A DNA stretch of 64,000 nt from Hirsutella rhossiliensis. Taxonomy: Eukaryota; Ascomycota; Sordariomycetes; Hypocreales; Ophiocordycipitaceae. Positions 1-59,962 of the stretch are shown here, piece after piece. Numbering within the stretch: position 1 is the stretch's first letter; every line of letters begins with the position of its first letter. The notes beneath the pieces are model-generated. The model was given only the letters and a program-made list of their open reading frames with translations. It was not told where the DNA came from and did no database searches. The DNA lies in the NCBI RefSeq assembly GCF_020360975.1, contig NW_025408682.1, positions 1,284,501-1,348,500 on the forward strand, written 5' to 3'. The translations under genes were made by a program, and so were the position numbers.

Positions 1-2113
1 TCGGTAGCGCAATTGAGAAATTCTCCACCAAAAGTCTACCATTTGAACTACATGAAATATGATCAGAACTTAACATTATAAACACAAAAAATATATCATT
101 CCGTAGAGAAATGGACGCTCTTATATGTACCGGCGCTTTTTACCATTCGCCCGGATCTGGTGGTGACTGGAAGGGCTTCGGTGCCACCTTGACTTCGATC
201 ACTGAAGCTGTCTCCACCTCTGAGACCGCCTCCTCCTCTGTGTCAGAATTCAGCACAACGGCTATCTCTTGGCTTTTAATTTGGGGAATGGCTTCTCAGC
301 CACCAAAGCTTCACTGAGAGTCATGAACCGTCTGTTCGGGTTCGGAATTGCTCTCCTCTTCTTGCCTCTCTGCAGCCGGGCCACTTCTTCCTCTAGCTTC
401 GCGATTCTGTTGCTGTGCTCGGCAAGCGTCTGTTCTTGGGCTTCAAAGCCTCTAGCTATCACGGCGTATCGTCTCCGGGTCCCAGGAGTCTTGTTCTTTC
501 CGAAATCGCGAATCTGGCGGCTGTTTCTTGGTGTATCATCAGAACCCAAAAATGGCGCGGACTTTGGAGACGTCTCTACAATGTCTGCGTGAATTTCTGG
601 ATGCCGCAATGCCTTGGATCGTGAGATCGGCCAATTCCCAGTGACCCTCCAGCCGGACAATATATTCTTTGCCGTCATTCCAACCTCGCGCGCTTTAGCA
701 TATGCCCGTATAAAATTGACCTTATGAACAGGCGCAGAATCGGTCAAACAGGTCAATTTCTGAAGTTCTTTCCGGTAAGCTGCCTTGGGGGCATTGAATA
801 CACCGTTATCTAACGGCTGGAGGCCATGAGAGCAGTGGGCAGGAAGGTAACAGCAATAAACGTTGTTCAAAAGCATGTGGCCATCCATGCATCCTGGTCC
901 CGGTTAACAGTAATTCCTACAGAGGTGGATAAAGAAACGCACCGTTGCATGACTTCCATGTCCATCTAATATGATCAGTCTAGCATCTGAGGCATCGGCT
1001 GGTCGCGTCTGGGGCAAATAGACCTCTCAAGCCACTCAATAGCGACATGGTTGTCCGTCCATCCGTTGGGCGACGTTATGTAATGCCAGTCGGCTATTTT
1101 GCCGAATTCCGTCAAGAACCACTGTTTCTGAAGCTCTTTGCCCTTAAAGATAATGCCAGGGTAAGGACATGGCCGTTCGCGGTGATAGCTTCAATAAATG
1201 AGGTCCAGTTGCGGGACTGTGGCCCTTTCAGAAGGGCCTTCCGTTTTGGGTCTGCACTCCCAACCACAAGACTATCCAAACCTGGCAAAAGAGTCTGGTT
1301 AGTAAAAGTAATGAAAGACAAGCCAAATACTCACCAAAGCCAGACATAATACCGCCTTCGTCAACATTCACGGTATTTTCTGGTTTAATCCATCCATACT
1401 CCTTTCCCCTGATATCGAAGAACCAGTGAACCGCCCGAGGCGTAAAAGCATTAAATCGGTTTGCTTCCTGACGTCTCCCACGCTTGTTCTTGATGTCCGG
1501 ATGGCGATTGATGAATTTAGAGACCCAGTTGCGCCCCACTGTCCGCTCGTTGTTCAGTTGCTTCATAAGAGCCTCCACACATGCGCGGATCTGACTGTGG
1601 GAGGGAGCATAGCCGAGAGACTCTTGGCGGAGGATCCAAGAAACCAAGCGAGCTTCCTGAGACTTACTCAAGAGTTGACGAGGCTGGATCTGATCAGCCA
1701 GGGCTACCTGGCCTTTGAGTCTGTCGGAAATAGACTGCTGAGGTATGTCATACTTTTGGGCGGCGCGGTACTGCGACAAGCCGTTTTTGTGACATCAATT
1801 ATCGCATTAGCTATAATATCCTCCGTATAAATACCCGAGGCCGCTTTAAGGTCATTTTGGTCATGTGGTGGAGGAATAACGAGAAGAATCATCGTCAGGA
1901 GGCGGAAGGAGATTAGGGGTTGGATGGTAATTTCGCGTGCAAGGCACGCACAGGCCACAGACCCTGTACAAACATTCAACCATCGAAAAGTAGAATTCAA
2001 TCAATCCTCTATCTACTCCAAGTGACGGCTTGTGAATATCTTCAAAGCTGGCTGGAATCGGTGTAAGTGAAATTGATGGTTTTTGGTGGGGATATTTTCT
2101 AATGCGCTACCGA
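1..2113 (-). mobile_element. pogo/Fot1-type DNA transposon (Tc1/mariner superfamily)
   Basis: The window begins in a terminal inverted repeat: the first ~50 bases, starting TCGGTAGCGCAATTGAG, match the reverse complement of 2060-2113 with scattered mismatches and small indels. Between them lies a minus-strand transposase with HTH and DDE domains. The outer tips are uncertain. Bases 2114-2145 repeat a CCGAAAGG motif and may still belong to the right repeat, and the left tip may lie before base 1, so no TA target duplication can be shown. Total length of about 2.1 kb fits full-length fungal pogo elements. The transposase frame is broken, so this copy is probably not autonomous. Confidence 0.85.
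262..1985 (-). pseudogene. pogo/Fot1-like transposase, frame-broken
   Basis: The minus strand reads, in order: a psq-type helix-turn-helix ending near 1700, a CENP-B/Tc5-type DNA-binding domain (about 1430-1700), and a DDE catalytic domain. The first Asp is in NVDEGGIMSGFG (about 1345-1380), the second in ILDGHGSH (about 950-985), the third in LQPLDNGVF (about 796-826). A plausible intron (GTGAGT donor, CTAAC branch, GCCAG acceptor) lies at about 1280-1336 just after the first Asp motif. Frameshifts occur near 1790 and 1100, and a stop lies near 905, so no single product can be made. Family assignment is confident from the domain order and the C-terminal block. Residual coding similarity is high, so inactivation looks fairly recent. 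Confidence 0.85.
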
Positions 2114-53065: not shown

Positions 53066-54300
53066 TGACAGGGAATGTGGGCTTGAACGTCCTAGCTGTC
53101 ATGGCCATCATGTTTTGCCTCCGTCGTCAGTTCCCGTTGCTTTTAGTATTTATATATATATATCTATTTACGATTCAGATCCGCGTTTCATTCCTATGGC
53201 TGTTTAGACATTTGTCGCTCCCTTTCTGAGTGTTTCGAGCTGGCGGGGTCTATCTGCATCTGCCAGCTGCCCGATTAATACATATACATGTAGATATGCT
53301 AAACCTGTTACCGTTCTGAGACGGATACCCGGCCAGTATCCGACATTCTAGAACGTTCATCTGGAGCTGACGAGGGCGATTGTGGCCTTTATCGGTCAGC
53401 ATGTAAAACACCAGTGATGCAATGGCCGCGACGGCTGTTGGTCACCACGAAGAATAGGCGCTCTGACGTGCTAGCAGAGTCCTCTTGGGTCAGACAAGTT
53501 GTACACACGCGTTGTCGCAGAGCTGATGCGACTCTAAGAGACTCGACTGACATTAACTTGGAGATGCTCCGCAATGTCATCAAGGTGTCTACACAGGCCC
53601 GTCCCTTGCCTTGTTCCGCACATTCGAGCTTCAGATTCTTGAGCTTATCTTGGGTGCGGCACCCTTGCGCCAAGCGGGAGTTTATATTGAGCAATGGCCG
53701 CCGAGGTAGGGCCCGACGAAGCAGTTTGGCAAGTTAACTTGAGCTCGCAATTCTGATATGTGCAGGGAAAAGTGCCATTGCGCCCAGCCATTCCCGTGAT
53801 CTATCTGAACGAACCCATAGGCGAGTCGAGAAGCTTCGTTGGTATCTAGAGTGCAGCTACTTGCGGGCATGGTGGCTGAAGTATTCGAAGGGCAGTTTGA
53901 CGGGGACAAAGGCAGACACCCAAAGCAAGCGCACCACAGGGCTAAAGATGGCTAGAGTAGTTTAACATATTTACAGACATCTCGATCATCTGATCACCAA
54001 GGAAACAAGTGATTCTATGACTCCATGACTCTTTTAAGTCTGAGTATATCTGTGGATGGCACTGGACTGCAAAGTCATTGCAGGAGTGGGACCATTGAAG
54101 GGGACAATCTTCCCCGTCAAAGCAGCAATCTATCGAGATGGGGCAGATACTAGCAATAAGCAGAGTTCAAAATTACATGTATAAAGCAGACCACACCGAC
54201 CCGCTGAGATAAGGACGAGTGAAGAGGTGTAAAAGAGAAGTCGGTCCCAAAACCATCTGCCCTACAAGCCACAGTCCTCTGCAAACGCCTTTCCGCCAGA
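53066..54300. other. AT-richer intergenic; upstream region of the micro-exon gene
   Basis: No gene recognised. It ends with the TATA-like element and leader of the secreted-peptide gene. Confidence 0.5.
54180..54186 (+). promoter_or_regulatory. TATA-like box upstream of the micro-exon gene
   Basis: TATAAAG lies about 115 nt before the ATG at 54301, followed by a leader with no intervening ATG after 54230. Position and sequence suit a fungal core promoter, but this is inference from sequence alone. Confidence 0.45.
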
Positions 54301-55013
54301 ATGAATATCCTCATCTTCCTCACTGTACTTGCGCAGCTAGCGACAGCTGAACCGATAGGGGACAGAAAGTATCGATCTGGTGTACGTATAAATTCAAGAT
54401 CAACAGAGAATGTAGTGTGTTGCGGTTAAACAAGCACTCGACAATTTTACCGGCTGACCACCGGGTGCTATAGGGGGTAAGTTGTGGACTTGTCCCAGTC
54501 TCAACCCGAGAATGGCGACGGACAAGCCATATCATACTGATTCTGTATTATCAACAGCCACAGTTTGTAAGTGACGCAACCTTCCACGGAAACTTTGCAA
54601 TAATGGCGGTGGTGAGCTGATGTCTGTAATATCGGTACGCAGTGTGTAAGTCCTACAATCTCCCTCTCGCGGCAGAACATATCTACTGCTCATCACGGGT
54701 CTCAGCTAACAGCTAGTTCTAGCTAGTAAGTAATCCAATCTCTCCGTTGACGGTTGCGTCGAAGCGACCTTCGCTAATCACCTTTGCCAGTTTGTACGAA
54801 CCCCACGTATCTGGACACTGACTGGAGTAGCAGCTGATACTCTTCAATGTCTAGAAAGTGAGTGGAATTCTTAATCCACACACTCTCATGGCGAGCTGGC
54901 GAATCGCAGACTGAGCTCGGTTGAATGTAGCTTGTAAGTCTGTTGTGCTCGAGTCCCGACGACCGCAACTGCTAACCCGGAATAAACCGAAGTGTGTAGG
55001 TGCCTCCTCTTAA
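54301..55013 (+). CDS. secreted small peptide gene built of single-codon micro-exons
   Basis: Exon 1 (54301-54381) codes for a signal peptide (hydrophobic residues 3-14, AxA site after residue 16) and a short charged propeptide. Eight introns follow, each with donor, AG acceptor and usually a CTRAY-like branch site: 54382-54473, 54477-54563, 54567-54642, 54646-54722, 54726-54790, 54794-54854, 54858-54930, 54934-54992. Between consecutive introns remain exactly three bases, in phase 0: Gly (54474), Phe (54564), Cys (54643), Leu (54723), Phe (54791), Lys (54855), Leu (54931). The last exon (54993-55013) starts with Cys, adds five residues and ends TAA. The product is about 40 aa with a Cys30-x4-Cys35 loop. 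At the second junction an upstream AG (54557) would give nine bases, Pro-Gln-Phe, instead. Donors are GTAAGT five times, otherwise GTACGT, GTACGA, GTGAGT. No domain is known; the function may be a secreted signal, effector or bioactive peptide. Unspliced, exon 1 reads on to a stop at 54427-54429. Confidence 0.7.
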
Positions 55014-56683
55014 GCTATTCTCATTTTTATATTTGTCAATGATTGTCTAAGAGCAGAGACGTGATGCCAAGGGCACAATCAGACATTTTCTAAGCCAGAT
55101 CGGCCAAAATTTTGAACAATTTTGCCATCAGATCTTCGGCTCAGGGTGTATTATCGATGATAAATGGAATAAGCAAGATACGGCCGTTCCAGGGGGTATA
55201 CAGAACACCGGTTGCACGACGGTCATTTCGCGGATGGGCCGCGCGGTGGAAGCGGCAGGATGATAAAGAAACGGGCTCGACCCTTTGGCCCAATGTCTGC
55301 GCGCCATCTGATGTGTCCGAAAATGTTGGCGATTCGTACGTTCAAATGCGTCTTATCAATGGCTACCTGGGTCGTTGAACCGTAAATGACCGTCCTTGGC
55401 AAGCACAATACTTAACTGTTTCTCACGTCCTGTATTGAATCCACAGCATATGTCTTTATACTGTACTTCGTACGCATGGTACATGCACGCTCTCGGGAAT
55501 CTTTTGTACCAAGAAGACTAAACATAGGGGGCACATTGATAAGTTGAATACGGATTTTTCAAGCTGGTAAAATACCGCTACACCAGGCAAAATAGGAGCA
55601 CCCCCAGTGGAGGTGCTATTAATGCGTATTATAGGTCCCTTTCTGCCGTGATATTATCAATCAACCCTCCAATCTCCCCGCCTGCTTATTGTTTAAATCG
55701 CCGCCGTCAAAACTACTTTCAGACTCCGGTTTAACTGCCAAACCAATAGCGCGAGGGTCAAAGGGTGAAGCTCCGGTGTCGGCGTAAGCTTGCTGGGGCC
55801 GAGTTGCGAGCGTCCCGATTCTGGGGAATGATTGACCTTGACCTGACTTCCCCGGCGAAAACGCACCACAAACAGCGCCGCTGCCAATTAAGAAGAGCCA
55901 ATATATCATTTGCCACTTGGTGAGACTGCGCGTGGATTCAGGGTTAAAACCCCAAGTATCCAATGTCGCATTCCCGCCGGTCGTGATCCCAGAGTCTTCT
56001 CAGATGTCTCACTGACGAAAGTGAAGCGCAAGAAACAGGCCATCGAACATGAATACCTGTCAGCACTGTAACCTTCCATGGTGTCTATGGTGGTTGAGCC
56101 AGCGGGCAGGTGTTCGTGCCGGCATGATAGACTGGATGGTAAGGCAGAAGGTTACGTGACGAGGTCGCAGAGGATGGCGAGCTGGGTTCCGTCTAGGATC
56201 CCGCTCCTCGCCCACTGTCCCGGTACGATGCACTCCCTCCCCAAATCGCAATCCATAGTGACTTTATCGTCCTCAGCCGCGCATATGCAGATATCGGCCT
56301 TGAGCCGGACCCAAATAGGCTACGCATCGCATAGCCCACCATCAATATTGTGCCTGCTTCGTTCGCCTCTGACGGTGGCACCACGGTCCGCAAGCGAAGC
56401 CCATAGCGCCGGGAATGGGCCAAGCAACTCGTCTCTCCCAGTGACTGAGCGAGGGACGAGCGTCATGACGTTTCCCGGCGACAGCTGAATGCGCCCAAAG
56501 TCGTGGAACGCGGGCAAGATGTGTGTGGAACAGAATAAGCCAGTATGTTATTGATCCGACGAAACCCAAGTTGCTGCGAGATTTTCTCGCCTTGAGTCGA
56601 CCTTGTCCGAAGAATCCAGTCTTCCGGTTCGGGCCCTGCTCAGTGTCTATGAAACAGACGAGGCAAACAGTGTGCCGAGAAGA
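55014..56683. other. intergenic with a diverged repeat and possible gene remnants
   Basis: This contains the third copy of the LTR-like repeat (about 55556-55653). A minus-strand open stretch at 55661-55970 has one hydrophobic segment (WQMIYWLFLIGSGAVCGAF) but no ATG. Minus-strand fragments at 56193-56520 also look like broken coding sequence. I cannot assign either. Confidence 0.4.
55556..55653 (-). repeat. 97-bp LTR-like repeat, diverged copy 3
   Basis: The reverse complement aligns along its whole length to the copies at 15669 and 61122 with roughly one base in five changed. The GGTGTAGCGGTATTTTACC block is fully kept. No clear target duplication remains, so it is older than the other two copies. 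Confidence 0.7.
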
Positions 56684-59600
56684 CAGGCTTGGAAATCGAT
56701 CGTACAATCGATTTGATCGAATCGATTAATCGAATCGATTTCGATTTCGATCGATCGATTAGAAGTCCTGCTCGATCGATATCGTATCGATCCAACCTCC
56801 AATCGATCGATTTGATCGTCGTTCGCCATGTCCATACAAGGTGTCCAGGGTAGGCTGCGTAGGTTGGATGCGTGACGATGCTGCCGCCCGACGCGTCTGC
56901 CAAACACCCTGGCAAACGACCGGGGGTCCCAGGCAGCCAGTCATATCTATCTTGTTGCCGCGCGTCGCGTGTCGACAAAAGTAAATTGATCTCTCCGTCT
57001 CTTGCGTTTGCAAGTCCTCCCGTTCAACGGAATCAGTACGCGTCGCAACCAGGAATTATTTCGGGCCTCAGCCTGTCCGAGTAGACTTCATACAGATTCG
57101 ACCTTATCAGCCTCGCACCCTTCGATTTGACCTCGCCCACATTGTTTACGGACGTTTCCCACCATGGACGCGCTTGATGAGGACATAGAGATCGCCTCCT
57201 CCACGCCGCCGCCTTCCGAGCCGACAACCAGTTCAGCATCAACTAAATATGCACCCATGGGGTTTCAGATTATGAAGCTTGGACGACTGATAAATTTGGG
57301 CGGTTCCCCGGCTTCACGATTTGCCACGACCCTTCTCGAGAACGGACGTGGTGGTGGCAATTCGGATTCAGAATGAAGGACAACAGGTCACGGCCCCACA
57401 AGATCGTATGGATCTGCGAGAGATGCTTCCTCCGGGACAGGCCGAAGACAGCACATTACGTCTTCATCGCTTCGACTGGGGGAAGCGTCGTCCGACATCT
57501 GAGGAAGGAGCACAAAGTCGTGGTTTGTGCCACCTCTCCGTACCCCATCTCCACGTCGTTCGATCATGCCCGCTAACTTGTCAGCCACCTTCTAGACAAC
57601 GTGCAGGCTCAGTTACCGGGAGTGGAGGTGCAGAACGGAACCTGCTTGATATGCTTCGCGCCGATCCGACGAACCCTCGAGATCAGACTCTTCTCAGCAA
57701 TCTGCATACGTTATTCGATCCGAAGATGAATCAACTGCTCCTGCTCGACTGGCTTACATATCATAACCTCCTTTAATGTCGTAAACTCTGAGCGCTTCAG
57801 ACGACTCCTTCTCTACAACAACCCGGCTCTCCAGGAAGGCCAGATACCAACTGGCAAAACGCTTGTGAATCTGCTACTAGATGAGTATAATCGCGCTCTT
57901 GGTCCGCTTTGCGAGCTGCTTCAAAGAGCGAGAAGTATGATTCATTTTACCTTTGATGGCTGGACTTCCCGACAAAACACATCATTCCTCGGTATCAACG
58001 CCCACTTTATCGACCAAGATTGGAACCAATGGGAATCCTCTTGGCTTTGCCGGCTCTCGCGAAACGCCATACTGGAGCAGCGCTTGCAGATGAAGTTGCA
58101 GATACAATATGCGCGTTTGGTCTTGAAGACAGGTATAGAACCACAGTCAACACTTCTTGGGTCCGTTAGCTGACAATCTTGACTGTTATCCGGCGTCAGA
58201 ATCGGGTACTACACGCTTGACAACGCTACGAATAATGATACGGCTGTGGAAGCGCTTGCCGCTGAGTTCGATTTCGACAGGAAGAGCGTCGCATCCGCTG
58301 CGCCCTCATTTTCTGAACCTGGCCGTCAGGGCTATGATGTACGGCAGCAAAGGGATAATTTCAACGAGTTGCTTGCTCATTGGGGCGATAAGGACTTTGT
58401 GGCTGAAGAGGAAGAGCAGCGCCAGTTGTCCGACGCTATCAATGAGCTGGCGACCGACGACGACTTCTGTGTGCCGAGCATGGAAGAAGGATTCGAGGTT
58501 GAAACAGTCCCAGAAGGCAGTCAGGATCAGGACGTACTGCCCGACATCATCAATGGCGAAGAAGTGGACAAGTACCGCAAGTTTGGGCCATTTGGCAAAC
58601 TTCACAATATTGGCATTGCTCTTCGAACGAGCAGTCAACTTCTCGAGGTCTTTTACGAAGCTCAACGGCAAACCGCTCCTACTGAACCTATTCTTACGTG
58701 GGTTCAAAACGTCTGCACTCGCTGGCAATCCGATGAGGCGATGGCCTCACGCGCTCTGCTGAAGCGTACGGCTTTGAACAGGATGTTTTCCATCATCGAG
58801 GAACGATGGCTTGGCAAAGGCGGCAAAGAACAGGACAAACCAGCGATACTGAAAGAACAACTTTCCCTTGAAGAATGGAAGGTCGTTGTTGCGGTTCAGA
58901 AGATCCTTCAGCCATTCAAGATCGCCTCGAAGCAACTCCAGGGCGAGGGTATTGCTGGTAAACGCTCCACGTCAGGAGGGTTCGATGAGTAGAGTTCAGG
59001 AGTTATAATCGAAGAGAACGAAGATCAGACCATGAAAGAGGTTCACCTGTTCAATGACATGGACGCAAGAACTCGCAGGGTTTTGAAGATTTACATCAAG
59101 CTCGGATGGAAGAAGCTGAACGACTACTATAGCAAGCTGACCTCAACCGCATATGTAGCGGCAGTGGTGTTCCACCCCTGCAAGAAGTGGCGCGCTCTGG
59201 AACGGCTTTGGAGCCAACTCCCGTCTCGTCAGACGTCGGAGTGGGAAAGAACATATGCGAGAAGCTTAGCGACAGTCTGGAAAGAGAGGTACAAGAACAT
59301 GGCTCATCGGCAATCCTGCGATGGTGTTTCAGCGGATACGACTAATAGTGGCTTGGACTATATTGAGCGTCGATTGGCGTTTAGTCGATCATTGGCTTGC
59401 CCTGAGCCTCGAGGGCGGCAAATTAAAGGACCAAAGCAGTCAACCGCCTTGCAAGAACAGGACGAGCTTGATCAGTACCTATCAGAGCCGCCGGTGGAAA
59501 ATATCGCATACAAAACGGACCCAATCGCTTGGTGGAAGGACGTTGGTGTTGCGCGGTTTCCTCGGCTGTCTTATATGGCTGTTGACTACCTTACCATCGC

Positions 59601-59962
59601 GTCGTCTTCAGCAGGAACGGAAAGAGATTTTAGCAGCTGTGGGAGGATGATAACACCACTGAGATCTCGCCTACGACGCCATATTGTGGCGATGGCGCAG
59701 TGTCTTCGTTCCTGGAGTAAAGCTGGCATCTATCAGCCGACACTTCCTCTTGGTCTGCTTGAAGGGGACAATTGGAGGCAAGTTCTTCAACTGATGGGCA
59801 AGATCACCTAGATAGGGATGATTTTTAGTATTGATCGATTCGATCGTCGATCGATTCGAATCAAACAGCGATCGATCGATATCGATCGATTGAAGGTGAC
59901 GATCGATAAAATTCGATCGATCAGGCTCGAAAATCGATCTATAAGATCGATTTCCAACTCTG
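56684..59962 (+). mobile_element. hAT-superfamily DNA transposon, 3279 bp
   Basis: A perfect 8-bp target duplication CGAGAAGA flanks the element (56676-56683 and 59963-59970). The inverted ends CAGRSTTGGAAATCGATC match at both sides with a few changes. Subterminal regions (56690-56820 and 59826-59958) are packed with CGATCGATT/AATCGATCG motifs in both orientations, probably transposase binding sites. Between them lies a BED-finger hAT transposase. The length is normal for an autonomous fungal hAT element, but the coding frame has several breaks. Confidence 0.93.
57164..59811 (+). pseudogene. hAT transposase with BED finger and hATC domain, recently inactivated
   Basis: Reading from an ATG at 57164: an N-terminal segment, a [10 protein letters not shown] block, and a BED-type zinc finger (ICERCFLRD...VVRHLRKEH, about 57400-57520). 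Then the RNase H-like core with FTFDGWTS (first catalytic Asp near 57955) and, after an apparent true intron (about 58132-58199, GTATAG...GTCAG), [12 protein letters not shown] (second catalytic Asp). A long helical insertion follows, then the hATC dimerisation domain with YLTIASSSAGTERDFSS (about 59580-59640), ending in a stop at 59809-59811. Breaks seen are frame changes near 57255 and 57590, a frameshift near 58030, and a single in-frame TAG at 58990-58992. Otherwise the protein is complete, so the copy was lost recently. Confidence 0.88.

Follow-up and report, generated by a model that had tools for sequence, protein, structure and literature searches.

Hirsutella rhossiliensis carries a set of loci in which a conventional leader exon appears to be followed by a chain of exons that each consist of exactly one codon, with a short intron between every two of them. 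One such gene lies at positions 54301-55013 of the 64,000-nucleotide stretch of DNA analyzed here (the window; contig coordinates G000:C16:1284501-1348500). Fifteen further arrays of AG-NNN-GTAAGT-type junctions were located elsewhere in the genome, and all of them chain with 3-nt exons. Directly visible in the DNA are the architecture and its recurrence, the scarcity of stops, the concentration of variation in the codons of homogeneous arrays, and intronless and nearly intronless paralogs. Together, these features make it highly probable that the array loci are real genes with predicted splicing by intron definition, the arrays changing in whole-codon steps.

An earlier note on this DNA had described eight introns of 59-92 nt lying exactly one codon apart, read in phase 0 behind a TATA box and a leader exon and closed by an in-frame stop. 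Our sequence and coordinates agree with that note and the observation is confirmed: the introns and their spacing were borne out by the sequence and by a chain scan that demands a CTRAN branch-like site in each intron, and the reading phase and the flanking elements are as claimed (Table 1). The branch-like site was present in all eight introns, with its A located 9-32 nt before the intron end. If left unspliced, the frame from the ATG runs into a stop at 54427. Intron 2 has a second possible acceptor (CAACAG) 6 nt upstream, at 54557, the use of which would add CCACAG to give a 9-nt exon, CCACAGTTT, with the phase kept. A GTAGGT at 54996, after the last TGT, is a possible ninth donor. The predicted peptide contains a single cysteine pair around four residues (GFCLFKLC).

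Table 1. Elements of the window gene (positions in the window) and numbers of single codons in all arrays. Codon counts are those of the scored chain finder; terminal codons are less sure.
Feature	Position	Strand	Remark or basis
TATA-like box TATAAA	54180..54185	+	sequence, direct reading
Exon 1 (leader, 27 codons)	54301..54381	+	protein MNILIFLTVLAQLATAEPIGDRKYRSG; by eye a signal peptide
Intron 1, 92 nt, donor GTACGT	54382..54473	+	chain scan
Single-codon exon GGG (Gly)	54474..54476	+	chain scan
Intron 2, 87 nt	54477..54563	+	chain scan
Single-codon exon TTT (Phe)	54564..54566	+	chain scan
Intron 3, 76 nt	54567..54642	+	chain scan
Single-codon exon TGT (Cys)	54643..54645	+	chain scan
Intron 4, 77 nt	54646..54722	+	chain scan
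Single-codon exon CTA (Leu)	54723..54725	+	chain scan
Intron 5, 65 nt	54726..54790	+	chain scan
Single-codon exon TTT (Phe)	54791..54793	+	chain scan
Intron 6, 61 nt, donor GTACGA (weaker)	54794..54854	+	chain scan
Single-codon exon AAA (Lys)	54855..54857	+	chain scan
Intron 7, 73 nt, donor GTGAGT	54858..54930	+	chain scan
Single-codon exon CTT (Leu)	54931..54933	+	chain scan
Intron 8, 59 nt	54934..54992	+	chain scan
Last exon TGT GTA GGT GCC TCC TCT TAA (CVGASS, stop)	54993..55013	+	sequence and chain scan
L029			74 single codons
C13 (L046+L040)			43 single codons
C10 (L038+L043)			41 single codons
L030			34 single codons
C18 (L031+L045)			34 single codons
L027			33 single codons (34 introns)
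L025			19 single codons
L032			19 single codons
L050	G000:C1:6039701-6041500		19 single codons
L024			13 single codons
L044 (part of C8b: L044, L048, L049)			11 single codons
L023			9 single codons
Window gene			8 single codons (scored finder)
L035			8 single codons
L028			7 single codons
L026			4 single codons

That such an alignment of splice sites is very unlikely to arise by chance, as the earlier note had held, is supported by several counts. The junction pattern YAG-NNN-GTRNG occurs 18 times on the forward and eight times on the reverse strand of the window, and seven of the 18 fall at 54471-54928; with the distance set to any other value between 1 and 30 nt, there were at most two matches in 54300-55050. 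The chain scan covered 264 kb, made up of the window and 20 samples of ten kb from the genome, on both strands with 12 exon lengths (1-10, 12 and 15 nt). At the window locus it returned nine introns with 3-nt exons, the possible ninth donor included, and outside this locus no chain of at least three introns on either strand at any of the 12 lengths. Correspondingly, a scored chain finder set to 3-nt exons gave 53.4 at the window locus, where the remaining exon lengths up to 12 nt did not exceed 19.6, and the top score in the remainder of the 264 kb was 20.6, which belongs to a decayed four-intron array (L020). A model of single junctions derived from the eight window junctions recovered only those same eight.

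No candidate homologue of the 40-residue window peptide was detected among 5.8 billion proteins, and neither a DNA nor a protein search found one elsewhere in the 81.8-Mb genome. A relation of the window introns as copies of one another was rejected, the pair scores being no higher than the level of shuffles. The tRNA and Rfam scans of the window returned no tRNA and no Rfam family. Remains of transposases with DDE_1 and hAT dimerisation domains lie near the gene, at 262-903 (-) and 58993-59811 (+), and the window also holds a choline kinase ORF. Of the 1657 protein matches of this ORF, the 120 listed point to Hypocreales near Ophiocordycipitaceae; the best named one is Cordyceps sp. RAO-2017 at 79%, and none of the 120 comes from H. 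rhossiliensis, which is hard to square with the identity between L039 and HRG_012392 described below.

The earlier note's reading of a leader followed by single-codon exons stands for the window gene, but the gene is not isolated, and the related genes strongly back its predicted exon chain. The search for further arrays covered 81.8 Mb in 40 contigs; loci were taken from lists of ungapped motif matches and from the places of a 3'UTR motif (see below), and the fetched regions were then analyzed with the chain finder. The ungapped motif YAGNNNGTRAGT gave 969 + 1104 genome matches against 573 + 616 in the reversed control, part of this excess being due to fixed-spacing repeats, and loci were taken from the first 100 matches listed. 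Among the codon-class motifs, TGY had 58 matches (control 12), SCY 83 (28), NAY 112 (71; loci from the 100 listed) and NSY 261 (156; loci from the 100 listed). The NTK class, YAGNTKGTAAGT, had 60 matches against 80 in the reversed control, so that its significance lies in clustering only. The signal of the codon-class motifs consists of same-strand clusters with a spacing of 50-100 nt. When the ten array loci L023-L032 were scanned with nine exon lengths, chains of more than three introns appeared at 3-nt exons only; L028 has two introns by the strict scan and eight by the scored finder.

The longest run of consecutive single-codon exons comprises 74 (L029). The pair C10 and C13 arose by recent copying, and L026 nearly duplicates the end of L044; as duplicates, the members of these pairs are not independent. 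Short or decayed arrays were found at L020, L034, L036, L041 and L052; L051 was too weak as an array and was left out of the count. The decayed array of L020 (about 452-782, G000:C18) is rich in AT, holds a stop codon and has lost splice signals. C8b is known from three pieces only (L044, L048 and L049, G000:C8:1040692-1052199); one end carries a leader and the opposite end, about 11 kb away, the 3'UTR motif. Non-array sequence lies between some of the pieces, which are possibly one very long array split by insertions. The codons of L050 are TGG, CCG, GAT and GAG only, its introns are near-identical and by eye unlike the main family described below, and sequence resembling an ankyrin-repeat gene (by eye) follows downstream. 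L024 and L028 are proline-rich (SPQGPSAPPPSPK, GPGAPPS), their introns show no detectable relation to the main family, and a leader could not be found in either; L028 is located after an ankyrin-like ORF.

Leaders were readable in 10 of the 16 arrays (all except L024, L026, L028, L030, L035 and L050) and by eye look like a signal peptide plus a short propeptide. The leader ends directly before the first intron, LEKR (exactly so in C10, C13 and C8b), LEKRA (L029) and ERRQ (L027), are compatible with Kex2-type processing. On the 3' side, seven of the nine arrays with a resolved end (L026, L027, L029, L030, L044, C10 and C13) open their last exon with the stop codon, while this exon has six codons in the window gene and in C18. 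By eye, the donor of the first array intron is poor in L029 (GTATCC) and in C10 and C13 (GTATCT), and in L025 it is of the GC type; the chain finder's choice of first intron in L029, L025 and L032 was rejected by eye. Products with six cysteines in the order C-C-CC-C-C are predicted for L027 (ACTPIFQKCGFRIPPCCKGLICKGVGSKTCRKP) and C18 (CLQNGGQCYSSRSCCPGSRCKPIGGAYVYLIAGR, then CMPRNA). The cysteine spacing, read by eye, is C-x6-C-x6-CC-x4-C-x7-C in C5 and C-x6-C-x5-CC-x4-C-x14-C in C18, and both products show the C-C-CC-C-C framework of inhibitor cystine knots (by eye). The Pfam model Toxin_12 (knottin-like) scored the C5 and C18 products at 18.9 and 16.8 bits, below its cut-off of 21, and a PDB search with the C18 product returned nothing significant (best E 0.2).

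Constraint was counted in 14 arrays with 349 codons and 350 introns, the latter 45-100 nt long and 73.2 nt on average. Donors are GTAAGT in 282 and acceptors TAG in 312 of the 350 introns, and CTRAY lies 8-32 nt before the AG in 317 (chance 6%), counts that are partly circular because the chain finder scores those signals. Stops are ignored by the finder, and only one was found in the 349 codons, compared to 8.1 expected from position-wise base frequencies; cysteine codons numbered 60 where 27.4 were expected. The single stop, in L032, is probably an exon-boundary error, since it vanishes when a 12-nt exon, AAACATGAACTA, is read in place of TAA (by eye). Retention would break the frame or bring in a stop for 347 of the 350 introns.

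Where the introns of an array are near-identical, variation is concentrated in the codon columns, with the third position the least variable of the codon. Across 26 aligned units of L030, entropy at codon positions 1-3 was 1.98, 1.82 and 0.71 bits; the 70 intron columns had a mean of 0.18 and a maximum of 1.20, with seven columns reaching at least the value of codon position 3. The same order was seen in L029, C10 and C13. Codon usage is likewise distinctive in comparison with a small set of ordinary codons (five window ORFs, read stop to stop): CAA:CAG is 15:1 in arrays vs 23:46 in the ORFs (p 1e-5), AAA:AAG 10:5 vs 16:84, and G-ending leucine codons make up 0 of 27 vs 70 of 165. Array codons that create a new AG are rare, and G-ending codons are avoided even where no new AG would arise, as there is no CTG or TTG among the 27 leucine codons.

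The strongest evidence that the array exons are real comes from paralogs in which the joined codons of L029 are matched by continuous ones. L037 and the two L039 genes each consist of one ORF, and their leader is that of L029. Aligned to L037, the 74 joined residues of L029 scored 215 (500 shuffles: mean 42, maximum 70), and aligned to L039 they scored 159 (shuffle maximum 67); within the first 36 codons of L029, 24 are identical to L037, six differ synonymously and six nonsynonymously. A fourth paralog, L047, is free of introns except for three array-type introns at its 3' end, which set off an exon of 11 codons, then CTC as a single-codon exon and a last exon that opens with the stop. A search of 5.8 billion proteins with L037 gave one match, which is fungal; the first 90 residues of Hirsutella rhossiliensis HRG_012392 are exactly those of L039 (by eye).

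Several of these loci share a 31-base 3'UTR motif, which occurs at 25 places in the genome at up to three mismatches and nowhere in the control. Eighteen of the 25 places were read and comprise nine arrays (L035 being patchy), three short or decayed arrays and six places without an array (L033, L037, L039 twice, L042 and L053), so that the motif also stands behind the ordinary genes L033 and L053. It contains a GGAG..CTCC inverted repeat and is conserved on the 3' side of arrays, intronless paralogs and ordinary genes.

If the exons are real, they might still be mostly optional, one gene then giving rise to many peptide variants. The internal exons are all 3 nt long and in phase 0, which would make skipping frame-neutral, and the reading would be broken by retention of almost any intron, as counted above. 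As the spacing of cysteines is conserved between L029 and its paralogs, which suggests one main product, we regard this as possible and still somewhat unlikely.

To compare introns between arrays, profiles were built leaving out one array at a time, with the 99th percentile of shuffles as threshold. By this measure, 11 arrays share one intron family, the introns above threshold being 9/9, 18/18, 5/5, 31/33, 74/74, 33/33, 11/12, 15/18, 33/35, 41/41 and 43/43. Kinship with this main family was undetectable for the introns of the window gene (0/8), L024 (0/12) and L028 (0/6). Duplication of units with their codon attached was tried and rejected as an account of the codons: introns next to the same codon are no more alike than others (12 tests in six arrays, the lowest at 35 of 300 permutations), and therefore introns and codons evolve apart. 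The recent copies C10 (41 units) and C13 (43 units) differ, outside a middle block and the alignment ends, in five columns; the middle block holds five codons in one and seven in the other (GGGGL vs LLNDHLP). We read this pattern, together with the shared intron family, as the result of tandem duplication by which arrays grow, of exchange between their introns, and of gain or loss of whole units.

The shared family would also be expected if the intronless genes came first and an intron, either mobile or template-driven, had been placed between successive codons of the mature region, in an extreme introner burst. The lack of a link between codon identity and flanking intron sequence, the greater likeness of introns than of codons in L030, L029, C10 and C13, and the retention of introns only at the 3' end of L047 all point the same way. 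Intron loss is 3'-biased, and because of this expectation the 3'-end introns of L047 run contrary to the prediction for a loss of introns from arrays. However, we know of no mechanism that would insert an intron in phase 0 every 3 nt and only downstream of a leader. Moreover, the mature regions of the intronless genes carry array-like codons, unlike those of ordinary ORFs: cysteine is TGT in 12/12, 10/10 and 10/10 cases (ordinary ORFs 9/28), and G-ending codons account for 6/85, 1/66 and 5/69 (ordinary ORFs 34%). This suits an array ancestry with cDNA-mediated intron loss, and we consider the insertion of introns into ancestral intronless genes unlikely.

The window gene agrees with the other arrays in layout, and its 5'UTR and leader scored 56 against the intronless L042, which carries the family 3'UTR motif, where 500 shuffles reached at most 41; this relation was seen by pairwise comparison only, after genome-wide searches had given nothing. 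Compared with the other 11 loci the window gene was mostly at shuffle level (C10 z 4.3, L032 z 2.0). The 3'UTR motif was absent from the window locus in the genome motif search at up to three mismatches, and the 3' side of the window gene did not rise above shuffle level in five comparisons. We therefore take the window gene as a putative old and diverged member of the array family. Its array is short at eight introns, these are unlike the family introns, and one acceptor as well as the end are ambiguous, all of which would be in line with a window locus that by itself is due to chance or is a dead array, the family still being real. Against this speak the chain score of 53.4 compared to 20.6 for the best of the remainder, the open phase-0 reading with a stop, and the homology of the leader to that of L042; the introns have diverged, yet spacing and signals are kept, which suggests constraint. 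A chance or dead window locus thus appears improbable.

Finally, it is most improbable that the arrays are minisatellites without a spliced product, whose unit holds AG-NNN-GT by chance and which grew by slippage with a spacing inherited from the first unit: Tandem Repeats Finder (TRF) does report 74.6 copies of 75 bp for L029 and 31.9 copies of 73 bp for L030, and decayed arrays exist (L020 with its stop codon, L034, L036 and L041), but TRF is blank in L027, where 34 introns nevertheless keep the 3-nt spacing, the intronless paralogs of L029 encode a similar protein, and variation sits in the codons and not in the introns, with nearly no stops.

For genes of this kind, the spliceosome would face up to 75 consecutive introns and no exon long enough to be defined. 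Since definition across an exon is impossible at a length of 3 nt, the introns would be recognized as units, for which their short length (mean 73 nt in the 14 arrays) is suited, and would be taken out one by one by intron definition. With each intron removed, the next donor would adjoin an exon of normal length, and any order that frees one neighbor first would work. Behind the conventional first exon, which is the predicted leader, each following exon would supply one codon. Because the internal exons are single codons in phase 0, the frame would survive the skipping or addition of units, and arrays may gain or lose whole units of intron plus codon, with the peptide changing by whole residues and without a frameshift. 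Exchange between introns would keep these alike, while selection would hold or diversify the codons; intronless copies may derive from spliced transcripts. Tentatively, and at somewhat less than even chances, we propose an architecture in which an exon equals a codon, in which growth and shrinkage by whole units, homogenized introns and diversifying codons go together, and in which frame-neutral skipping possibly yields combinatorial peptides.

The earlier note's author knew of no gene whose mature region is built from serial 3-nt exons, and the titles and abstract openings of the open-licence papers retrieved likewise describe no arrays of single-codon exons. The closest known system is that of the schistosome micro-exon genes (MEG), described with exons of 3-81 bp and introns of up to 5 kb (PMC10526429). 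As in the MEG described there, the predicted products are secreted with an N-terminal signal peptide (leaders by eye in 10 of the 16 arrays), chains of very short exons have lengths divisible by three (3 nt in 16 arrays), and the lifestyle is of a parasite type, the fungus being related to parasites of insects and nematodes. Unlike the varied exons and long introns of MEG, the arrays combine single-codon exons with 350 introns of 45-100 nt, and the introns of 11 arrays form one homologous family. Other internal exons are rare, namely the 12-nt exon of L032 (by eye) and the 11-codon exon of the partly intron-free L047.

Isolated 3-nt exons are reported for lipS of Dactylellina haptotyla, which has two (PMC5639578), and for Drosophila homothorax (PMC7392893); as described, these genes have one or two single-codon exons each, whereas here an unbroken chain would make up the mature protein. 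Fungal introner-like elements and stwintrons are described as families of near-identical introns in one genome (PMC4457414, PMC8469720, PMC5639578), and near-identical introns likewise recur in the 11 arrays. In those accounts, introners and stwintrons multiply across genes or nest, whereas here introns stand in tandem in one gene with one codon between them. Searches of the genome for L023 paralogs, by leader protein and by DNA with the L023 array, found only L023 itself, the DNA search also touching on introner-type scatter. The array introns are consecutive and not nested, unlike stwintrons with their internal intron within an external one. Intron gain by tandem genomic duplication (PMC4974935) shares duplication as the source of introns, with one event described there and dozens of introns here. 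SNHG14, described with 48 tandem introns carrying small RNAs (PMC11608373), likewise has many repeated introns in a row within a single transcript, as is predicted for the arrays. In contrast to SNHG14, the exons would be the product here, and no Rfam family was found in the window.

If transcripts confirm the predicted splicing, we would know of no protein-coding genes that are more finely divided, with nearly each residue of a mature peptide on an exon of its own. They would then lend themselves to tests of intron definition, of the order of splicing and of exon skipping, because each exon is far below the size usable for exon definition. Since related genes with 75, 42-44, 3 and 0 introns share one genome, they may also give a direct view of the birth, homogenization and loss of introns. 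Standard gene finders are expected to miss 3-nt exons, and such peptides may therefore be absent from protein databases. The arrays could also tie intron gain to the rapid evolution of secreted cysteine-rich peptides.
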